Source: Vulcanimicrobiota bacterium | GTDB lineage: Bacteria; Vulcanimicrobiota; Vulcanimicrobiia; Vulcanimicrobiales; Vulcanimicrobiaceae | Length of the DNA: 64,000 bases | Direction: 5' to 3' | NCBI GenBank assembly: GCA_030041225.1 | Contig: JASHOG010000018.1 | Coordinates: forward strand, 1-64,000 | In this document: in pieces, positions 13,908 through 51,231 of the stretch | Numbering within the stretch: position 1 is the first letter of the stretch | Layout: every line of letters begins with the position of its first letter | Notes under the pieces: model-generated | Told to the model about the DNA's origin: nothing | Database searches by the model: none | The model's input: only the letters and a program-made list of their open reading frames with translations | Program-made: the position numbers and the translations under genes

Positions 13908-14741
13908 ATGACCCACGCCGCAGTCGAGTACGGGCCCCGCCTCGTTGGGACGCCCACGGGGACGTTGCGCTCGGCCGTTCTCGTCCGGCCCTCACAGCGA
14001 ATCGAGCTCGCGACCCCCCGCGACGGCGAACCGGGCGCCGTCTTCACGCGAGCAGTCGAGCAGCACGAGGTCCTGGCGCGCACTCTGCGCTCGCTCGGGG
14101 TCGACGTCAGCGTCGTCGAGCCGTACAGCGACGACCCGGACGCCGTGACGGTCGCCGAGGCGGCCGTTACCTTCGAGAACGGCGTCGTGCTGATGCGCCC
14201 TAGCTCGATGACGCGGCGCGCCGAGCCCGAGCACATGTCGGCGCAGCTCGTCGCGATGGACCTTCCGCTTGCCGGGTATGTTGCGCCGCCGGGACTGCTT
14301 GACGGCACTGACGTGCTCCTGATCGGCCGGACGGCGTTCGTCGGCGTCGGCGCACGCGGAAACGCGATCGGCAGGGCCGGCTTCGCCGGCATCGCGCAAG
14401 CTCACGGTTATCGCGTCATCGAGGTTGTGCTTGCGCCGGGCGTCGAGTCGCTCCAAAGCGTAGCGGGCGCCGTCGCATCGGATACGCTCGTTGTCGCCGC
14501 GCACTTGGTCGACATGGAGGCGTTCACCGGTTTTCAGACGATCGCACTCGATCGGGGTGAGGATTCGGCTGCCGGCGTGCTCTGCATCGGTGAGCGTCAC
14601 GTCGTCGCCTCGGTTCGCTATCGCACCTCATTGCAACGCCTGCGCCGCGCCGGCGTTACGGTCGAAGGCATCGATCTCTACGAGTTCGAGAAGGTCGGGA
14701 TCGCGCCGTCGATGTTGGTCTTGCCGCTTCGGCGCGACTGA
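13908..14741 (+). CDS. Dimethylarginine dimethylaminohydrolase (DDAH)-fold protein, probably non-catalytic
   Basis: LLDGTDVLLIGRTAFVGVGARGNAIG and IDLYEFEKV resemble the DDAH family; catalytic positions substituted (see findings). Confidence 0.75.
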   Translation: MTHAAVEYGPRLVGTPTGTLRSAVLVRPSQRIELATPRDGEPGAVFTRAVEQHEVLARTLRSLGVDVSVVEPYSDDPDAVTVAEAAVTFENGVVLMRPSSMTRRAEPEHMSAQLVAMDLPLAGYVAPPGLLDGTDVLLIGRTAFVGVGARGNAIGRAGFAGIAQAHGYRVIEVVLAPGVESLQSVAGAVASDTLVVAAHLVDMEAFTGFQTIALDRGEDSAAGVLCIGERHVVASVRYRTSLQRLRRAGVTVEGIDLYEFEKVGIAPSMLVLPLRRD

Positions 14742-14747
14742 TCAGGT

Positions 14748-15479
14748 ATGCAACGCATCGCGGTCCTCTCCGACATTCACGGAAATCTCGTTGCGCTCGA
14801 TGCCTGCCTTGCAGACCTCGCCGCGCAAGGTGGCTCCGATGCGATCGTCGTCGCCGGCGATCTGTGCTTCGGCGGCCCGCGTCCGAAGAAGGTGTTGCAG
14901 CGGCTCGAAGAGGTGGGGGCGCAGTGCGTACGCGGGAACACCGATCGGTACCTCGCGGAATCCGACGACACGCAGTTCGAAGCGGCTGAGACGGCGCGCC
15001 TTGCCTGGACGAGAAAACAGATCGGAGAGAAATGGCGGGGGTGGCTGCGAGAGCTTCCGTTCTCACTGCGGATCGGCGACGAGGGTGACGAGTTGCTTGT
15101 CGTACACGCAAATCCGACGACCGACGACGAGCACATCTGGCCGGACGCGGACGAGGAGACGCTCGAGCGGTTGATCGGAGGCGAGGCTGCGAGGACCATC
15201 GCCTTCGGCCACCTGCACATTCCTTACGTGCGGCATTGGCGCGGACGCTTACTCGTCGACGTTGCCTCAGCGGGGCTGCCGAAGGACGGGGATCCACGCG
15301 CCTGCTATGCGCTCTTCACGCAGCGCACCGGCGGCTGGGAAGTCAAGCACCGTCGCGTCACCTTCGACGTGAAGAAGGTTGCAACGCAGCTCGCAGATTG
15401 CGGTGTTCCGGGGAGTGCGGATCTCATCGCAACGCTGCGCCGTCACCGCTATCGGCGCTTGAAGGGCTACATCCCATAA
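14748..15479 (+). CDS. Metallophosphoesterase (YfcE-like)
   Basis: IAVLSDIHGNLVALDACL, VVAGDLCFGGPRP, FGHLHIPY. Confidence 0.9.
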   Translation: MQRIAVLSDIHGNLVALDACLADLAAQGGSDAIVVAGDLCFGGPRPKKVLQRLEEVGAQCVRGNTDRYLAESDDTQFEAAETARLAWTRKQIGEKWRGWLRELPFSLRIGDEGDELLVVHANPTTDDEHIWPDADEETLERLIGGEAARTIAFGHLHIPYVRHWRGRLLVDVASAGLPKDGDPRACYALFTQRTGGWEVKHRRVTFDVKKVATQLADCGVPGSADLIATLRRHRYRRLKGYIP

Positions 15480-44350: not shown

Positions 44351-45942
44351 GCGTTCCAGGCCTCCTGGACCGGGTTGGGGTCGAAGCCTTTGAAGTCGTC
44401 GCTGATCGGCTGCATTTGGCGCCGCCAGTAGAAATAGACGTTCGGCACGTCGTCGTGCAGCAACTGCTGCGTCAGGGCGTACGCCTTCTTGCGCGTTGCG
44501 CGGTCGTAGTGTGTCAGTGCAACCTCCTGCGCCGCGTCCATCGCCGGGCTACAATACCGATCGTAGTTGTAGCCTCCCGGGGGGAAGTTCTTGCAGGCAA
44601 ACTGGGAGCTGTCGTCGGGGTCGATGCCGGCGTACCAACCTGTGGGGCTCAAGTCGTAGTTGCCTGACTGCAAAATGCCGCCTTCGCCGGCGGGCGCGAA
44701 GAGTACGTCCCCTGGGACGTACTTCACCTGCATCTCGATGCCGGCTTGGCGGAGCTGCCCTTGGAGGATTACCGCCTCGCGGCGGCGCGTAACGTTCGAG
44801 CTATTCGTGACGCCCACGAGGATGAGCGGCTGACCATCCTTACGCATGATCCCGTCGGGGCCCGGCGACCATCCCGCCGCTTCGAGCAGTGCACGTGCTC
44901 GTGCGACGTCGTGCGGATATGAGTGCACGTTCGGGTTGAAGGCCCACATCCAATCGGGAATGTCCTCGGTGGCTTCCTTCTCCTGTCCGTACGTCAGTGT
45001 CTCGACGATCTGATGCTTGTCGATTGCGTACGCAATCGCCTCGCGTACGCGCACGTCTTTGAGAAACGGGCGAGCGCAGTTGAGGTAGAGATTCTCGTAG
45101 CCGTTGACGTTCACCCACACGATGTGCGTTCCGGGAATGCTCTTGACGACGGGGTACGTCTCGATTGAGGCTTGGTAGATCCAGTCGATCTCGTGCGTGC
45201 GCAACAGGTTCACCGAGGTGTTCTCGTCGGGAATGATGTGTAACTCGATGCGCCGTAAGCCGGGCTTTCCCATGAAGAAGGCGTCGTTTGCAATGAGCGT
45301 GATGTGGTCGCCGCGCGACCACTCGGCAAATCGGAACGGCCCGTCACTGACGGTGGGCTCACCGTTGAACGGAATTTGATTGATGTTCGGGTACCGCGCA
45401 AGCACGTGAGCCGGCGCAACGGGATATGGCTGGTCGCTCTCGGCGAAGAAGGTGTCGACGAAGGGCGAGAATCGCTCCTTGAGGTGAACGACGACCGTGT
45501 ACGGATTGGGGGTGTCGATCGAACGCACTTCGTCGTACCCGTGCCGCGAGACCACGTTGTTGTTCGGGTTCATGATCGCTTGCCACGACCACTTGACATC
45601 CCTGCTCGTCACCGGAACGCCGTCGGTCCATGTAGCATCGCGACGTAAGTGGTACGTGATCGTGAGTCCGTCTTTGCTGATGCCGCCGTTTTCGAACGAG
45701 GGAACGGCGGTCGCAAGCATCGGCACGGGATTCCCGCGATCATCGGCCGAGAGAAGCGGCTCGAAGAGCAGCCGCGCGACGAGAACGTCGATCGTGTTCG
45801 AGTTCAAGAGCGGGTTGAGGTTCTTGAGATCGGCTTGAATGCCGATGCGCAACACCCCTGGCTGTGTACCGTGTATCTCGCCTGACTTTGTGCAGCCCAC
45901 GAGCAACGCCGCGAAAGCGGCGAGCGCGAGCGCGGCTCTCAT
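44332..45942 (-). CDS. Peptide/nickel ABC transporter substrate-binding lipoprotein (SBP family 5)
   Basis: Lipobox LLVGCTKS; DGLTITYHLRRDATWTDGVPVTSRDVKWSW. Confidence 0.93.
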   Translation of the reverse strand: MRAALALAAFAALLVGCTKSGEIHGTQPGVLRIGIQADLKNLNPLLNSNTIDVLVARLLFEPLLSADDRGNPVPMLATAVPSFENGGISKDGLTITYHLRRDATWTDGVPVTSRDVKWSWQAIMNPNNNVVSRHGYDEVRSIDTPNPYTVVVHLKERFSPFVDTFFAESDQPYPVAPAHVLARYPNINQIPFNGEPTVSDGPFRFAEWSRGDHITLIANDAFFMGKPGLRRIELHIIPDENTSVNLLRTHEIDWIYQASIETYPVVKSIPGTHIVWVNVNGYENLYLNCARPFLKDVRVREAIAYAIDKHQIVETLTYGQEKEATEDIPDWMWAFNPNVHSYPHDVARARALLEAAGWSPGPDGIMRKDGQPLILVGVTNSSNVTRRREAVILQGQLRQAGIEMQVKYVPGDVLFAPAGEGGILQSGNYDLSPTGWYAGIDPDDSSQFACKNFPPGGYNYDRYCSPAMDAAQEVALTHYDRATRKKAYALTQQLLHDDVPNVYFYWRRQMQPISDDFKGFDPNPVQEAWNAWQWSI

Positions 45943-47972
45943 ACGGCGGCTTTTCCGCCGACGCGATTACCCGGCACGGGGTCGTACCGGTCATGACGCC
46001 AGTGGAAGGTTCCCAGCCCCTGCGTTCCGGTGCGCAGCTCCGTGATGTAGCGCGCCATCTCGACCTGCGGAACGTCGGCCTCGATCTCGTCGAATCCGGC
46101 ACGCTCCGCAGGGTTCATTCCGAGAATCTGTCCGCGCTTACCGGTGAGTTGTTGGATCACCGTGGACGTGTACGTCGATGGAACGGTCACCGTCACATGA
46201 ACGATCGGCTCGAGCACGACGGGCTTGCACTTGGGCAGCGCGTCACGCACCCCCATGCCGGCTGCAGTCTTGAACGACTGCTCGCTCGAGTCGACGTCGT
46301 GATACTGCCCGTCGAAGAGCGTCACGTGGAGGTCGGTGACGGGGTGGCCGCTCGGCCCGTGCAGAAGTGCCTCGCGCACGCCTTTCTCGACGGCGGGAAA
46401 GAACTGACGAGGCACGACGCCGCCGACGATCGTTTCCTCAAACGTCACGCCCGAGCCGCGCCCCTTCGGCTCGAAACGCAGCCAGACGTCGCCGAACTGA
46501 CCATGTCCTCCGGTCTGGTGTTTGTAGCGCGAATGCACTTCGGTTGACGCTGTGATCGTCTCGAGGTAGGGAATCGCGGGTGGCGCGGTCTCCACCTCAA
46601 CTTTGTACTTGCGCGCGAGGCGCTCGACCGCCAGCGTCACGTGCTGCTCGCCGTGACCGAGCAGGAGGAGCTCATTTGTCACGTCGGCGCGCTGCAGTGA
46701 GAGCGAGGGATCCTCGTCGATGATGCGCGCGAGCATCTGCGAGATCTTCGCCTCGTCGATGCGCTCCTTTGGTCTAATGGCGACCGCGAAGACGGGCGCT
46801 CTCTGCGCGAGGCGCGGCAGAAGGACCTTCTGCCCTGCGGTAAGCGTGTCGCCGGTCGAGACCGGCTCGAGGCGCGCGATCGCGACGATCGCTCCCGGCC
46901 CGGCCTCCGGGATCGGTTCCTGCTTCTTTCCTTGAAGCCGATAGAGTCCACCCGAGCGCACGCGTTCGTCGCCCTTCGTGATGTCGACGAGCGTCGCGTC
47001 CGACTTCACCGTTCCGGTGAGAACGCGAGTCATCGAAAGTTTTCCGGACTGAGGATGAACGATTGTCTTGACAACGCGTCCGATGAACTGCGCACCGGCG
47101 TTCGGCTCGATCGGACGTTCCTCCGCGTCGACCTGGGGACGATCTGCGGGAGACGGAAACCAACGCTCGATCGCTCGCACGAGCGCCGGCACACCGGCGC
47201 CGCTGACGCCGGCGGCGACGATCACCGGGACGATTTGATCGTGCGAGCACTCGCTGCACAGGTCGCGCTCGACCTCCTCGAGCGGCGGCTCTTTACCTTC
47301 CAGCAGCTCCTCCATGAGGGTGTCATCGAAATCTGCCATCGCCTCAAGCAGTGCCGTTCGCGCCCGCTCCACCTGTGCACGAAGCGCCGCGGGAGGCTCT
47401 CCTTCGCGCTCGCCGTCGTCTTCGAACGTATAGGCTTTCATGAGCGCGAGATCGATGAAGCCGCTGAAGCTCTCCGCGGTGCCGATCGGCCATTGCTCGG
47501 CAACGACGTGGCGTCCGTACGCCTCTTGCAGGGCCGCAAGCGTTCCCGCGAAATCGGCGCCGGGCCGATCCATCTTGCCGATGACGAAAAGGTGTGGTAA
47601 GCGCAGCGACGTGCATTCGTCGATGAGGGCGCGCGTCTGTACGATACGAGCTGGATCCGCCTCGCAGACGACGACCGCGGCGTCGACGCCGGCGAGCACC
47701 GTGCGCGTCTCCTCGAAGAAGTCGATGAATCCGGGACAGTCGACGATCGTGAGATCGATGCTTCCGGCCGTGCAGTGCGCAAAACCGACGGTCGTCGATT
47801 GGGCGTGCGCGATGTCCTCAGGCTCGTAATCGGTGACGGTCGTTCCCTCGGAGATGGAACCGCGGCGCCCTACGGCGCCGCAGTGTGCGAGAAGCGCTTC
47901 GACGAGCGTCGTCTTACCGGCGTGATGCGGTCCGACGAACGCAACGTTTCGTAGACCCGAGATATCGGCCAT
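45939..47972 (-). CDS. Elongation factor G-like protein (EF-G2 type)
   Basis: GPHHAGKTTL, DCPGFIDFF, full EF-G domain layout to HWRHDRYDPVP. Confidence 0.92.
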   Translation of the reverse strand: MADISGLRNVAFVGPHHAGKTTLVEALLAHCGAVGRRGSISEGTTVTDYEPEDIAHAQSTTVGFAHCTAGSIDLTIVDCPGFIDFFEETRTVLAGVDAAVVVCEADPARIVQTRALIDECTSLRLPHLFVIGKMDRPGADFAGTLAALQEAYGRHVVAEQWPIGTAESFSGFIDLALMKAYTFEDDGEREGEPPAALRAQVERARTALLEAMADFDDTLMEELLEGKEPPLEEVERDLCSECSHDQIVPVIVAAGVSGAGVPALVRAIERWFPSPADRPQVDAEERPIEPNAGAQFIGRVVKTIVHPQSGKLSMTRVLTGTVKSDATLVDITKGDERVRSGGLYRLQGKKQEPIPEAGPGAIVAIARLEPVSTGDTLTAGQKVLLPRLAQRAPVFAVAIRPKERIDEAKISQMLARIIDEDPSLSLQRADVTNELLLLGHGEQHVTLAVERLARKYKVEVETAPPAIPYLETITASTEVHSRYKHQTGGHGQFGDVWLRFEPKGRGSGVTFEETIVGGVVPRQFFPAVEKGVREALLHGPSGHPVTDLHVTLFDGQYHDVDSSEQSFKTAAGMGVRDALPKCKPVVLEPIVHVTVTVPSTYTSTVIQQLTGKRGQILGMNPAERAGFDEIEADVPQVEMARYITELRTGTQGLGTFHWRHDRYDPVPGNRVGGKAAV

Positions 47973-47987: not shown

Positions 47988-49343
47988 TCAGCGGCGGCGT
48001 TTGGCCGCCTTCTTCTTGGTGGACTTGCGTTTGCGCAAGAGCGCCGGCGCTCGCTTGCGTAACGGCTTCCTCGCAAGCTTCTTCGGTTTCGCCGCCCGCT
48101 TGGCCGCCACTTTCCGTTTGGACTGCTTCTTCGTTACCGGGCGGCGCTTGGGTGAGGCTTTCTTTGTCGGCCTCAACGGCTTCGATGTGCGCAACGGCTT
48201 CGCGCGAGGAGGTTTCGGGGCGCGTTTGGGACTTGAGGGACGCTGCGCGCGAGCGCCGCCGGGCCGCAGAGCGCGAGGCCCGGCAACTTCCTCGGGAAGG
48301 CCAAGTTCGGCGCGTCCTAATCCCGTGATGCTGCTGCCGGGAGCGTGAGTGCGCTCGGGGTGGCGCTTTATCTTCTCTAGGTGCTCTCGAGTCGCCCGCA
48401 GCGCGACGCGCGCAAGCCTGCCGTTCACCGGGAAGACGAGCTCATTGATGCCGCAGACGTCGAGAACCTGTAACGCAACGTCGAAGGCGCCGCCTTGATC
48501 CTTGGGGCTGTGCGCGTCGGAGCCGACGGAGACCGGCACGCCCTTCGCACGCGCCTTCTTGAGAAGCCGCTTGTAGGCGTCCAGATAGCGCTTCTTTTGA
48601 TCCTCCGGATGGTCGCGGTAGAGGAAGCGGGTGTTGAACTCGATCGCCATCCCGCGCCGCACGCACGCGTCGAGAACGCGTTCTTCGTAACCCTCGAGCT
48701 TCTTGTGCTCGGGCCAATGGCCAAAACGCGCTGGGACGTAGAAGTGACCGACGATTTGCCCGGGCAGCTTCTCGACCTCGTCGAGGAGCTTCGCGACGTA
48801 CATCTCCCATGTGCGATCGGTTCCAACCGTGCCGAAGAGTTCGGCGAACTCGGGATTGTCGAAGGGCCACGGCCAATCGGCGCCCTTCTCGGGATGGTCG
48901 ATCGTGAGGAAGTGCACGGATCGGATGAGACCATCGGGGCGCATCGCATCGATGATGTTCTGTGCGTCGGGGCGCGACCGCGGGTCCGTATCGACCTCGA
49001 TGCCGATGGAGAAACGCATTCCCCGATGGAGCGCCTCCGAGACGACCGCCGCATGCCCGACGTCCACCCCTGCCGTCTCGGCGGCACCATAGAGATCTGC
49101 GGCTTCAGCGAGTTTGAGCGCGCGGCGCACGGTGCTCACTGCGCCGGGATCCTCGAAGGTAAGGAAGTTCACATGGTCTGCAACCATGAGAAACCTCGGC
49201 CAGCCGCGCGTGCAGGCGTGGTAGAACCAAAGGAAGAGCATCCGCGCCGAATACGCGATGGGGCGCTCCTCGGCGAAGGGGCGATGCTCCCCCTTCGCGT
49301 GGCCGTGAATATCCGGTATCGCGCGTATCCGTGGGTCGCTCAT
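47988..49343 (-). CDS. PHP-domain phosphoesterase with Lys/Arg/Ala/Pro-rich histone-H1-like C-terminal tail
   Basis: PDIHGHAKGEH, VADHVNFLTF, GIEVDTD, SVGSDAHSPKD; final about 95 aa extremely basic. Confidence 0.88.
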   Translation of the reverse strand: MSDPRIRAIPDIHGHAKGEHRPFAEERPIAYSARMLFLWFYHACTRGWPRFLMVADHVNFLTFEDPGAVSTVRRALKLAEAADLYGAAETAGVDVGHAAVVSEALHRGMRFSIGIEVDTDPRSRPDAQNIIDAMRPDGLIRSVHFLTIDHPEKGADWPWPFDNPEFAELFGTVGTDRTWEMYVAKLLDEVEKLPGQIVGHFYVPARFGHWPEHKKLEGYEERVLDACVRRGMAIEFNTRFLYRDHPEDQKKRYLDAYKRLLKKARAKGVPVSVGSDAHSPKDQGGAFDVALQVLDVCGINELVFPVNGRLARVALRATREHLEKIKRHPERTHAPGSSITGLGRAELGLPEEVAGPRALRPGGARAQRPSSPKRAPKPPRAKPLRTSKPLRPTKKASPKRRPVTKKQSKRKVAAKRAAKPKKLARKPLRKRAPALLRKRKSTKKKAAKRRR

Positions 49344-49364: not shown

Positions 49365-50105
49365 CTAACGCGCGCGCCGATACCCTTCCATCTCGAGTAA
49401 CCGCCGTTTCATTTCGAGCCCATAGTAGTAGTTATGGAGTGCGCCCGAGGCGTCGACGACGCGATGGCAGGGGAAGAAGAGCGGAAGCGGATTGCGTGCC
49501 ATCACACGCCCAACGGCTCGTGCCGCTTTTGGCTTACCAATCTGTACCGCGACCCACTGGTAGGAGCGAACTTCTCCAGGCGGTATTCGCGCGGCGGCAC
49601 GAAGCGCCGCCTGCTCAAACGGTGTGAGGTCGCTAATATCGACGACGTGGTCGTCGACCCGCCACGTCCGGAAAAATCGATCGAGCGTCGCTTGTAGCCA
49701 CGGCGGCGCAGAGCCCCGCACCACTGGGCGCCGTAAGCGAAGCTCAACGCGCCGTCGTACTGCCTCGAAGCCGCCGCCCGTGTCGAAGCTGAGCGAGGCG
49801 ATGCGCTGCCCTTTGAAGCCGACGTAGAGGCGGCCAAGCGGCGTACGGGCCATGGTTAGGACGACGGGTTCGCTACGCAGCCTAATGCGCAGGGTCGTGA
49901 TATGTTCGAGGACTTTGCGGGTGAGGTCGCATGACGGTTCCGGTAGCGGAAGACACGAAAGGCAATACGCGACACCTTCGCACTCCTCGTAGAGCTGCTG
50001 ACAGTGCGGGCAGGCACGCAGATGCGTCGTGACCTCGATTTTCAAAGAGCGAGAGCACCTGCCACGGGTTTCATCCCACAGCGCCTCGATGTCACGACAT
50101 CGCAT
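49365..50105 (-). CDS. zf-HC2 (ZAS anti-sigma) domain fused to methylated-DNA-protein-cysteine methyltransferase
   Basis: N-terminal HLRACPHC (HX3CX2C) zinc finger; C-terminal MGMT with FFPCHRVVDASG active site and IPPGEVRSYQWVAVQIGKPKAARAVG. Confidence 0.92.
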   Translation of the reverse strand: MRCRDIEALWDETRGRCSRSLKIEVTTHLRACPHCQQLYEECEGVAYCLSCLPLPEPSCDLTRKVLEHITTLRIRLRSEPVVLTMARTPLGRLYVGFKGQRIASLSFDTGGGFEAVRRRVELRLRRPVVRGSAPPWLQATLDRFFRTWRVDDHVVDISDLTPFEQAALRAAARIPPGEVRSYQWVAVQIGKPKAARAVGRVMARNPLPLFFPCHRVVDASGALHNYYYGLEMKRRLLEMEGYRRAR

Positions 50106-50715
50106 GCGCTGATGCTCCGTCGGAACTGATGCGCCCCACCTGCGGACCGAGAATGCGCCGTAGTATGCGCACGGCGCGATGAACGTGCGACTTCACCGTG
50201 CCGATCGGCTGTTGCAGGATCTCGGCGATCTCCGGGTGGCTGCGCCCTTCAATGAAGCGCAGCGTCGCGGCGGCGCGCAGATGCATGGGAAGCTGGAGCA
50301 GGGCTCGTTCCACCAGCGCGACGTCGGCGTTCTGCTCGACGATCGACTCCGGCTGCTGCGGGCGGCTCTCCTCGACACCGCTCAGGAGCGCGTCGGGATC
50401 CGCGAGCGCATCCAACGCGACGCTGACCGGGCGTTTGGTTCGCAGGCGGTTTCGGGTCACATTCAGCGTGATCGTATAGAGCCATGGCTGCAAGCGCAGC
50501 TCACGCAGCTGCTCGGGCGGCATCTTCCCAAGCGCGCGGTAGGCGCGGACGAAGGCGTCCTGCACGATCTCCTCGGCGTCCTCGCGATTGCCGGTCATGC
50601 GGAGGGCGAAGCCGTAGAGCCTACGCTGATACTCCTCGACAATCTGCTCGAAGTTCTCAACGCCGGCAACGACCTTGCTCTCCCTCTTGGTCTCATCTCT
50701 TTTTGCTCGAACCAT
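50092..50715 (-). CDS. ECF-type RNA polymerase sigma factor
   Basis: Region 2 LYGFALRMTGNREDAEEIVQDAFVRAYRAL; region 4 ATLRFIEGRSHPEIAEILQQPIGTVKSHVHRAVRIL. Confidence 0.95.
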   Translation of the reverse strand: MVRAKRDETKRESKVVAGVENFEQIVEEYQRRLYGFALRMTGNREDAEEIVQDAFVRAYRALGKMPPEQLRELRLQPWLYTITLNVTRNRLRTKRPVSVALDALADPDALLSGVEESRPQQPESIVEQNADVALVERALLQLPMHLRAAATLRFIEGRSHPEIAEILQQPIGTVKSHVHRAVRILRRILGPQVGRISSDGASAHAMS

Positions 50716-50784
50716 CCGCTCGGGCCCTACAGTTTCATTTGGGGGTACGGAGGTTCCCGCGCCCCCCTGCGGAAAGGGCGCCCC

Positions 50785-51231
50785 ATGACGCAACACCGGA
50801 TGTCGCCGGAGGACGTCCCGCCGCCCGAACTGCTCTCAACGCAGTCGGGCGTTTTTATCGGCGAGATATCCTTCGATGCCTACACGATCTGCAGTTTTCT
50901 GCCCGATCTCGACTCGGCGCGCGCAATCCCGCTGGTCCTGATCGGCTATCGCGCGCACGAGGACCCCGCTTTCGTCTGGCTTGTTCCGCAGGGAGGTGTT
51001 CGTACCGAAGGCCTGACCAACGATCCGTATTATACGCGCGTTCTCCGCGACCCGCGCGCGTACTTCAGGAAGAAACTTGCGAAGTACGTGGAGGAAACCG
51101 GCTCCGTACGACGCGGTATCGAAATGCTCGTCGACTGCCACCAGAACCATCTCGCCTTTACGCCGCTCACGGAGCTACGCGAAGACCCCTTCCGGCATCC
51201 GCTCGAGGTTCAACTGGTAGGGGCATTTTAG
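50785..51231 (+). CDS. Hypothetical protein, 148 aa, divergent from ECF sigma gene
   Basis: ATG 50785, clean ORF; no family recognised. Confidence 0.7.
   Translation: MTQHRMSPEDVPPPELLSTQSGVFIGEISFDAYTICSFLPDLDSARAIPLVLIGYRAHEDPAFVWLVPQGGVRTEGLTNDPYYTRVLRDPRAYFRKKLAKYVEETGSVRRGIEMLVDCHQNHLAFTPLTELREDPFRHPLEVQLVGAF

Follow-up and report, generated by a model that had tools for sequence, protein, structure and literature searches.

Bacteria are known to sense DNA alkylation through transcription activators of the Ada/AdaA type. A pair of overlapping genes in a Vulcanimicrobiota bacterium raises the question as to whether a sigma factor could be put to the same use: the first encodes an ECF sigma factor and the second a protein in which a putative anti-sigma domain is fused to a 6-O-methylguanine DNA methyltransferase (MGMT/Ogt), so that a DNA repair enzyme might double as the inhibitor of a sigma factor. 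The window analysed here is a stretch of 64,000 nucleotides (positions 1 to 64,000 of contig JASHOG010000018.1, assembly GCA_030041225.1) and the features of interest within it are the following.

50710 to 50737, minus strand: predicted autoregulatory ECF promoter, TGAAACT-N17-GGTT, from motif conservation
50092 to 50715, minus strand: ECF sigma factor gene, 207 aa from the ATG at 50715 (Pfam, NCBIfam, orthologues, sigma clade)
50092 to 50105, minus strand: 14-nt overlap of the sigma stop and the fusion start
49365 to 50105, minus strand: gene of the anti-sigma domain/MGMT fusion, 246 aa (full-length orthologues, adjoining sigma gene)
49866 to 50105, minus strand: class-I anti-sigma domain, residues 1–80, four helices with W10-D11 in helix 1 (40 orthologues, PDB profile, AlphaFold2)
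49377 to 49865, minus strand: MGMT/Ogt domain, residues 81–243 (Pfam PF01035, Foldseek)
49461 to 49472, minus strand: active-site PCHR motif with Cys213

The product of the upstream gene is an ECF sigma factor made up of regions 2 and 4 only (Sigma70_r2 at 4.5e-17 and r4_2 at 1.3e-12 in Pfam; TIGR02937 at 5.8e-28 in NCBIfam); its top NCBIfam scores are SigW-like, it is 75–88% identical to its orthologues, and the genome encodes only two further ECF sigma factors. The reading frame from 50092 to 50715 put forward in the earlier note exists, but its start is probably atypical for the family: the ATG at 50715 is the only near in-frame ATG and sits inside the -10 box of the conserved promoter, ahead of the point at which transcription is expected to begin. 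A longer version starting at the GTG at 50796 is possible. The 5' end of this sigma gene (50640–50740, minus strand) is unlike that of its genus, with the start region (MSALAPLL...) and the ribosome-binding site deleted and the frame changed, which could reflect an assembly error or altered autoregulation.

What precedes the MGMT part of the downstream protein is well supported as an anti-sigma domain by the comparison of its homologues. The Pfam family zf-HC2 scores 15.5 bits against a curated cut-off of 22.2, and the finger was for that reason not acceptable on Pfam alone; likewise, RsiW is the only PDB match that Foldseek returns for this part and it is a weak one (E 3.6). Pfam and Foldseek being weak on their own, the assignment rests on an alignment profile, the invariant ligands and the gene context. 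A profile of the N-terminal 80 residues from 40 orthologues, compared with PDB sequences, retrieved the anti-sigma factors RsiW (6.6e-5) and RslA (0.0065) and no other credible match. All four ligands of a full ZAS zinc signature, C3-x24-H28-x3-C32-x2-C35, are invariant in the 40 orthologues, as is W10-D11 in the first helix, and AlphaFold2 predicts four helices with a mean pLDDT of 83. The ZAS/zf-HC2-type finger recognised in the earlier note thus stands on the RsiW and RslA matches, but the fourth ligand, Cys3, had been missed and the finger is part of a complete four-helix domain, which rules out the reading of the N-terminus as a finger only. In class-I anti-sigma factors helix 1 contacts sigma4, in several groups via an aspartate (D11 in RseA), while helix 4 contacts sigma2 and blocks the binding of RNA polymerase (PMC7406223). 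It is plausible from its position that Asp11 of the fusion corresponds to this D11 of RseA. The fusion has no transmembrane or extracytoplasmic part.

The C-terminal part matches DNA_binding_1 (PF01035) at 6.2e-29, and Foldseek aligns it with the OGT of Mycobacterium tuberculosis (1.3e-11) and with the C-terminal domain of Ada (1sfe, 1.7e-10). The N-subdomain is missing from the Pfam listing but present by fold, and the PCHRV sequence (residues 212–216) is intact and invariant, so that the MGMT/Ogt domain is complete, as had been proposed. Y182, N205, C213, H214, R215 and E240 are found in 40 of 40 orthologues and R196 in 39. The substrate pocket is unusual in carrying His at C+11 (H224) and Tyr at C+15 (Y228), each in 39 of the 40; elsewhere C+15 is Trp in proteins of the Ada type and Phe or Leu in most sigma-linked MGMTs, and it varies in ordinary Ogt proteins. 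The range of alkyl groups accepted and the rate of transfer may therefore differ, and the pocket is predicted to be narrow and perhaps methyl-selective. M. tuberculosis OGT and other stand-alone MGMTs have the fold and the catalytic residues in common with this domain, but they possess no anti-sigma domain and have Gly at C+15 instead of the Tyr of the fusion family. Pfam and NCBIfam find neither an Ada zinc domain nor an AraC helix–turn–helix in the fusion.

The two genes are retained together to a striking degree. Among 60 related genomes, full-length orthologues of the fusion occur in 36 of the 37 from the window's family and in all four from its sister family, with the MGMT part alone found outside these two; a phylum-wide, alignment-based search of 149 genomes recovered the full-length fusion in 93, namely in 89 of the family's 99 and in all four of the sister family, and in none of the other families of the phylum. 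These 93 include one single-contig genome, ruling out chance or a MAG artefact. Named records that contain the fusion are MAGs of Candidatus Eremiobacterota/WPS-2. A search for conserved co-occurrence with ECF genes, as the earlier note had advised, found the sigma gene directly upstream and on the same strand in 40 of 40 loci, and also upstream in all 11 loci of named genomes that reach past the fusion; the 14-nt overlap noted in the window is the same in most of the 40. Judged from these genomes, the two-gene module is real, conserved and essentially core to one order of uncultured soil bacteria. The proposed pairing of sigma and anti-sigma is well supported by this adjacency, by the RsiW-like domain with its invariant zinc ligands and by W10-D11 in helix 1.

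The association reaches further than this order. Beyond Eremiobacterota, a scan of a genome collection returned MGMTs from Actinomycetota, Chloroflexota, Acidobacteriota, Dormibacterota, Binatota and others, and for 51 of these 68 the gene immediately upstream encodes an ECF sigma factor, three of the 51 (L092, L112 and L114) having sigmas that are divergent or placed apart. The sigma-linked relatives lack the zinc anti-sigma cluster and carry a C-terminal Ada zinc domain instead: Ada_Zn_binding (PF02805) scored 5e-10 to 6e-12 in three of four relatives scanned, the fourth, from WPS-2, falling below the cut-off, and all 51 have the cysteines C-x3-C...C-x2-C. Their short N-terminus of 25–45 residues aligns to residues 45–68 of the anti-sigma domain (hhalign, P 0.0014), a stretch that takes in helix 4 and the last part of helix 3; the alignment is collinear with the MGMT part, and 0 of 200 column-shuffled controls scored as high. 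The MGMT partner is probably itself the anti-sigma factor in these relatives as well. One genome, that of bacterium HRbin23, combines a zinc anti-sigma motif, MGMT and the Ada zinc domain.

In a tree of 63 sigma factors, from which L158 (without MGMT), L112, L114 and other long branches had been left out, 30 MGMT-linked and 13 window-type sigmas are separated from the 20 nearest unlinked ECFs by a branch with support of 99/89. A common ancestor of the MGMT-linked sigmas is therefore well supported by the phylogeny, with the qualification that a first AU test of a single clade that included L158, L112 and L114 failed. The tree of the MGMT domain did not unite the ZAS-MGMT and MGMT-Ada proteins apart from ordinary Ogt proteins and is not decisive for a single origin of both partner types. 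Some genomes of the two families hold the ZAS-MGMT pair together with a second sigma whose partner is an MGMT-Ada zinc protein (L142–L145).

A 2022 review mentions 6-O-methylguanine DNA methyltransferases in the genomic neighbourhood of group ECF122, which it lists without an anti-sigma factor and with its mechanism unknown (PMC8999054). The actinobacterial sigma-MGMT operons match this published description and are probably ECF122, and the window sigma shares a supported clade with these sigmas. In ECF122 (for example in Cellulomonas sp. Root930), as here, an ECF sigma is genomically tied to an MGMT; the actinobacterial type, however, consists of just a helix-4-like segment, MGMT and the Ada zinc domain, whereas in the window protein the zinc anti-sigma domain is complete and an Ada zinc domain is missing. 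The claim that the system lacks a characterised precedent is accordingly true in part: the literature search for an anti-sigma/MGMT fusion found nothing beyond the ECF122 remark and the fused architecture is new, but the related association of sigma and MGMT had already been noted, yet is uncharacterised.

The promoter region points to autoregulation. About 30 of 39 loci have the motif NGAAAC(C/T), with N mostly T or C, followed by 16–17 bases and GGT(C/T) near the sigma start, and TGAAACY-N16/17-GGTY has a single exact match in the window's genome, at the sigma promoter; from this motif the operon is predicted to be autoregulated. With a slightly wider motif a site appears about 40 bp upstream of a gene for an HtrA-like protease (Trypsin_2 and PDZ), often with a spacing one base shorter. 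It is present in 13 of 25 orthologues in the two families but in none of the four from genomes that lack the system, against a background of about 1% per 265 bp in which the true sigma promoters are still counted. The protease (contig C101 of the window's genome, and orthologues) has no obvious signal peptide and is possibly a cytoplasmic HtrA. An MFS efflux gene carries the motif in 6 of 29 cases overall; five of these six fall within the window's genus (5 of 7), and the pump is therefore a candidate target at the level of the genus only and was rejected as a family-wide one. One gene for a DUF4097 protein has the motif too, while an alcohol dehydrogenase, with the motif in 1 of 12 genomes, was dismissed as a regulon member. 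The motif is absent upstream of the other two ECF genes of the genome, one of which has TGAAAC with a different -10. Nor does it precede the Ada-type AraC-MGMT genes that were checked, including the genome's own, or the MGMT-Ada operons of the phylum, and the predicted regulon thus comprises the operon, the protease and the efflux pump, not an alkylation-repair set. By their predicted functions these targets also fit electrophile or envelope stress.

How might the pair work? We infer that the N-terminal zinc domain of the fusion binds the ECF sigma factor and holds it, while the MGMT domain would repair O6-alkylguanine through irreversible transfer of the alkyl group to Cys213. Alkylation of the fusion, most likely on this very residue, would change the conformation or stability of the MGMT domain and weaken the hold on the sigma factor. 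Once free, the sigma factor would transcribe its own operon and thereby supply fresh repair protein and anti-sigma factor, resetting the switch, and would also drive a small stress regulon with the HtrA-like protease, to which the window's genus would add the MFS efflux pump. We lean slightly towards alkylation as the signal sensed by the pair, as the earlier note had suggested, chiefly because the relatives carry Ada zinc domains and because the catalytic site is invariant; for the complete scheme, from the holding of the sigma factor through release by alkylation of Cys213 to the reset, the chances appear evenly balanced. Against an alkylation switch, the predicted targets hold no DNA-repair genes except the fusion itself. 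In E. coli Ada, moreover, the activating alkylation takes place on a cysteine of the zinc domain and not on that of the MGMT domain, and it is this zinc domain that the fusion lacks.

Other signals could be passed on by the same architecture. The zinc-thiolate cluster might sense oxidants or electrophiles as it does in RsrA, in which case the MGMT domain would act as an effector of repair or as a tether to DNA, and autoregulation would determine how much of it is made. Points in favour are the invariance of the Cys3-His zinc site, the fact that soluble zinc anti-sigma factors are often redox sensors (PMC7406223), and the HtrA-like and efflux targets, which would suit a general electrophile stress; left unexplained are the tie of the related sigmas to MGMT and Ada zinc domains across phyla and the related sigma-linked MGMT proteins that have no zinc anti-sigma cluster at all, and we regard this explanation as unlikely, if one to be reckoned with. 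It is also conceivable that the signal is the lesion as such, MGMT binding to alkylated DNA, and not alkyl transfer, drawing the anti-sigma domain off the sigma factor. Conservation of the DNA-contact and base-flipping residues Y182, R196 and N205 is in keeping with such a titration, and a pocket altered at H224 and Y228 could shift the balance from turnover to binding. The catalytic Cys, His and Glu, however, are as invariant as the residues that contact DNA, and alkyl transfer therefore appears to be selected, which makes titration quite improbable.

Two further readings take the MGMT domain or the anti-sigma domain out of the signalling path. The fusion might be degraded by the HtrA-like or another protease in response to envelope or proteotoxic stress, with MGMT as a passenger that has a side role; the motif at the promoter of the protease and that at the DUF4097 gene would agree with this, but no part of the anti-sigma factor is transmembrane or extracytoplasmic, and a passenger would need no retained catalytic residues. 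We consider such a switch very unlikely. A loss of sigma binding by the fused domain, which would leave the genes only co-transcribed, could be argued from the sub-threshold zf-HC2 score and the faint structural match to RsiW, but the invariant ligands and Asp11, the profile match to RsiW and RslA, the gene overlap and the near-universal co-retention make this hardly credible.

Alkylation sensing by the pair, the reading that we prefer, combines traits of two kinds of known regulators. E. coli Ada likewise joins an MGMT domain to a part that controls transcription, and shares the logic of autoregulation and possibly that of a one-shot, irreversible alkyl sensor; in contrast, Ada is an AraC-type activator triggered through its zinc domain, and the fusion has neither domain. 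The class-I anti-sigma factors RsiW, RslA, ChrR and RsrA resemble the fusion in their fold, zinc signature and the order of sigma gene and anti-sigma gene, but their sensor half is a transmembrane, cupin or redox module in place of MGMT. The MGMT-linked ECF sigmas of at least five phyla may form one class of alkylation-responsive switches, a generalisation that could equally well turn out right or wrong. In such a class the MGMT protein would be the anti-sigma factor, gripping sigma either via the full zinc domain (Eremiobacterota/Vulcanimicrobiota and HRbin23) or via a pared-down helix 4, and sensing would occur on the residue equivalent to Cys213, on the Ada zinc cysteine or on both. If true, this would amount to a sigma-factor counterpart to the Ada adaptive response and provide a concrete and testable mechanism for ECF122. 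A suicide repair enzyme employed as an inhibitor would embody a different control logic, which is stoichiometric, single-use and self-resetting by autoregulation. The pair offers a test case for the conversion of covalent protein damage into transcription and is a possible source of alkylation reporters.

Several observations concern the surroundings of the operon and other MGMT genes. A protein with AraC-HTH and MGMT parts, Ada-like but without the zinc domain, is encoded elsewhere in the window's genome (contig C97, about 14500–15300), and two other genomes (G048 and G015) encode a full Ada, zinc domain included. The gene that follows the fusion in the window after 21 nt (47988–49343, minus strand) encodes a PHP-domain phosphoesterase with a long C-terminal tail rich in Lys, Arg and Pro, and further downstream lies a second, EF-G-like paralogue of elongation factor G (45939–47972, minus strand). 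The phosphoesterase gene succeeds the operon in the window's genus and a few others, its place being taken in other genera by a pyroglutamyl-peptidase-like gene or a small ORF. Just 3' of the fusion gene, 20 of 40 loci have a two-stem structured leader, a ribosome-binding site and a GTG-started ORF of 18–26 codons. The stems, GUCCGC...CGGAC enclosing CCUUC...GAAGG, show some compensatory changes; Rfam gave no match in five fusion loci and none for the leader. The small ORF mostly reads MIIVSSDSSx(n)TMIGGA(Q/R)T and is followed by a terminator in several loci, and a genome-wide pattern search (13 genomes) placed the combination of leader and small ORF almost exclusively on the 3' side of the fusion.
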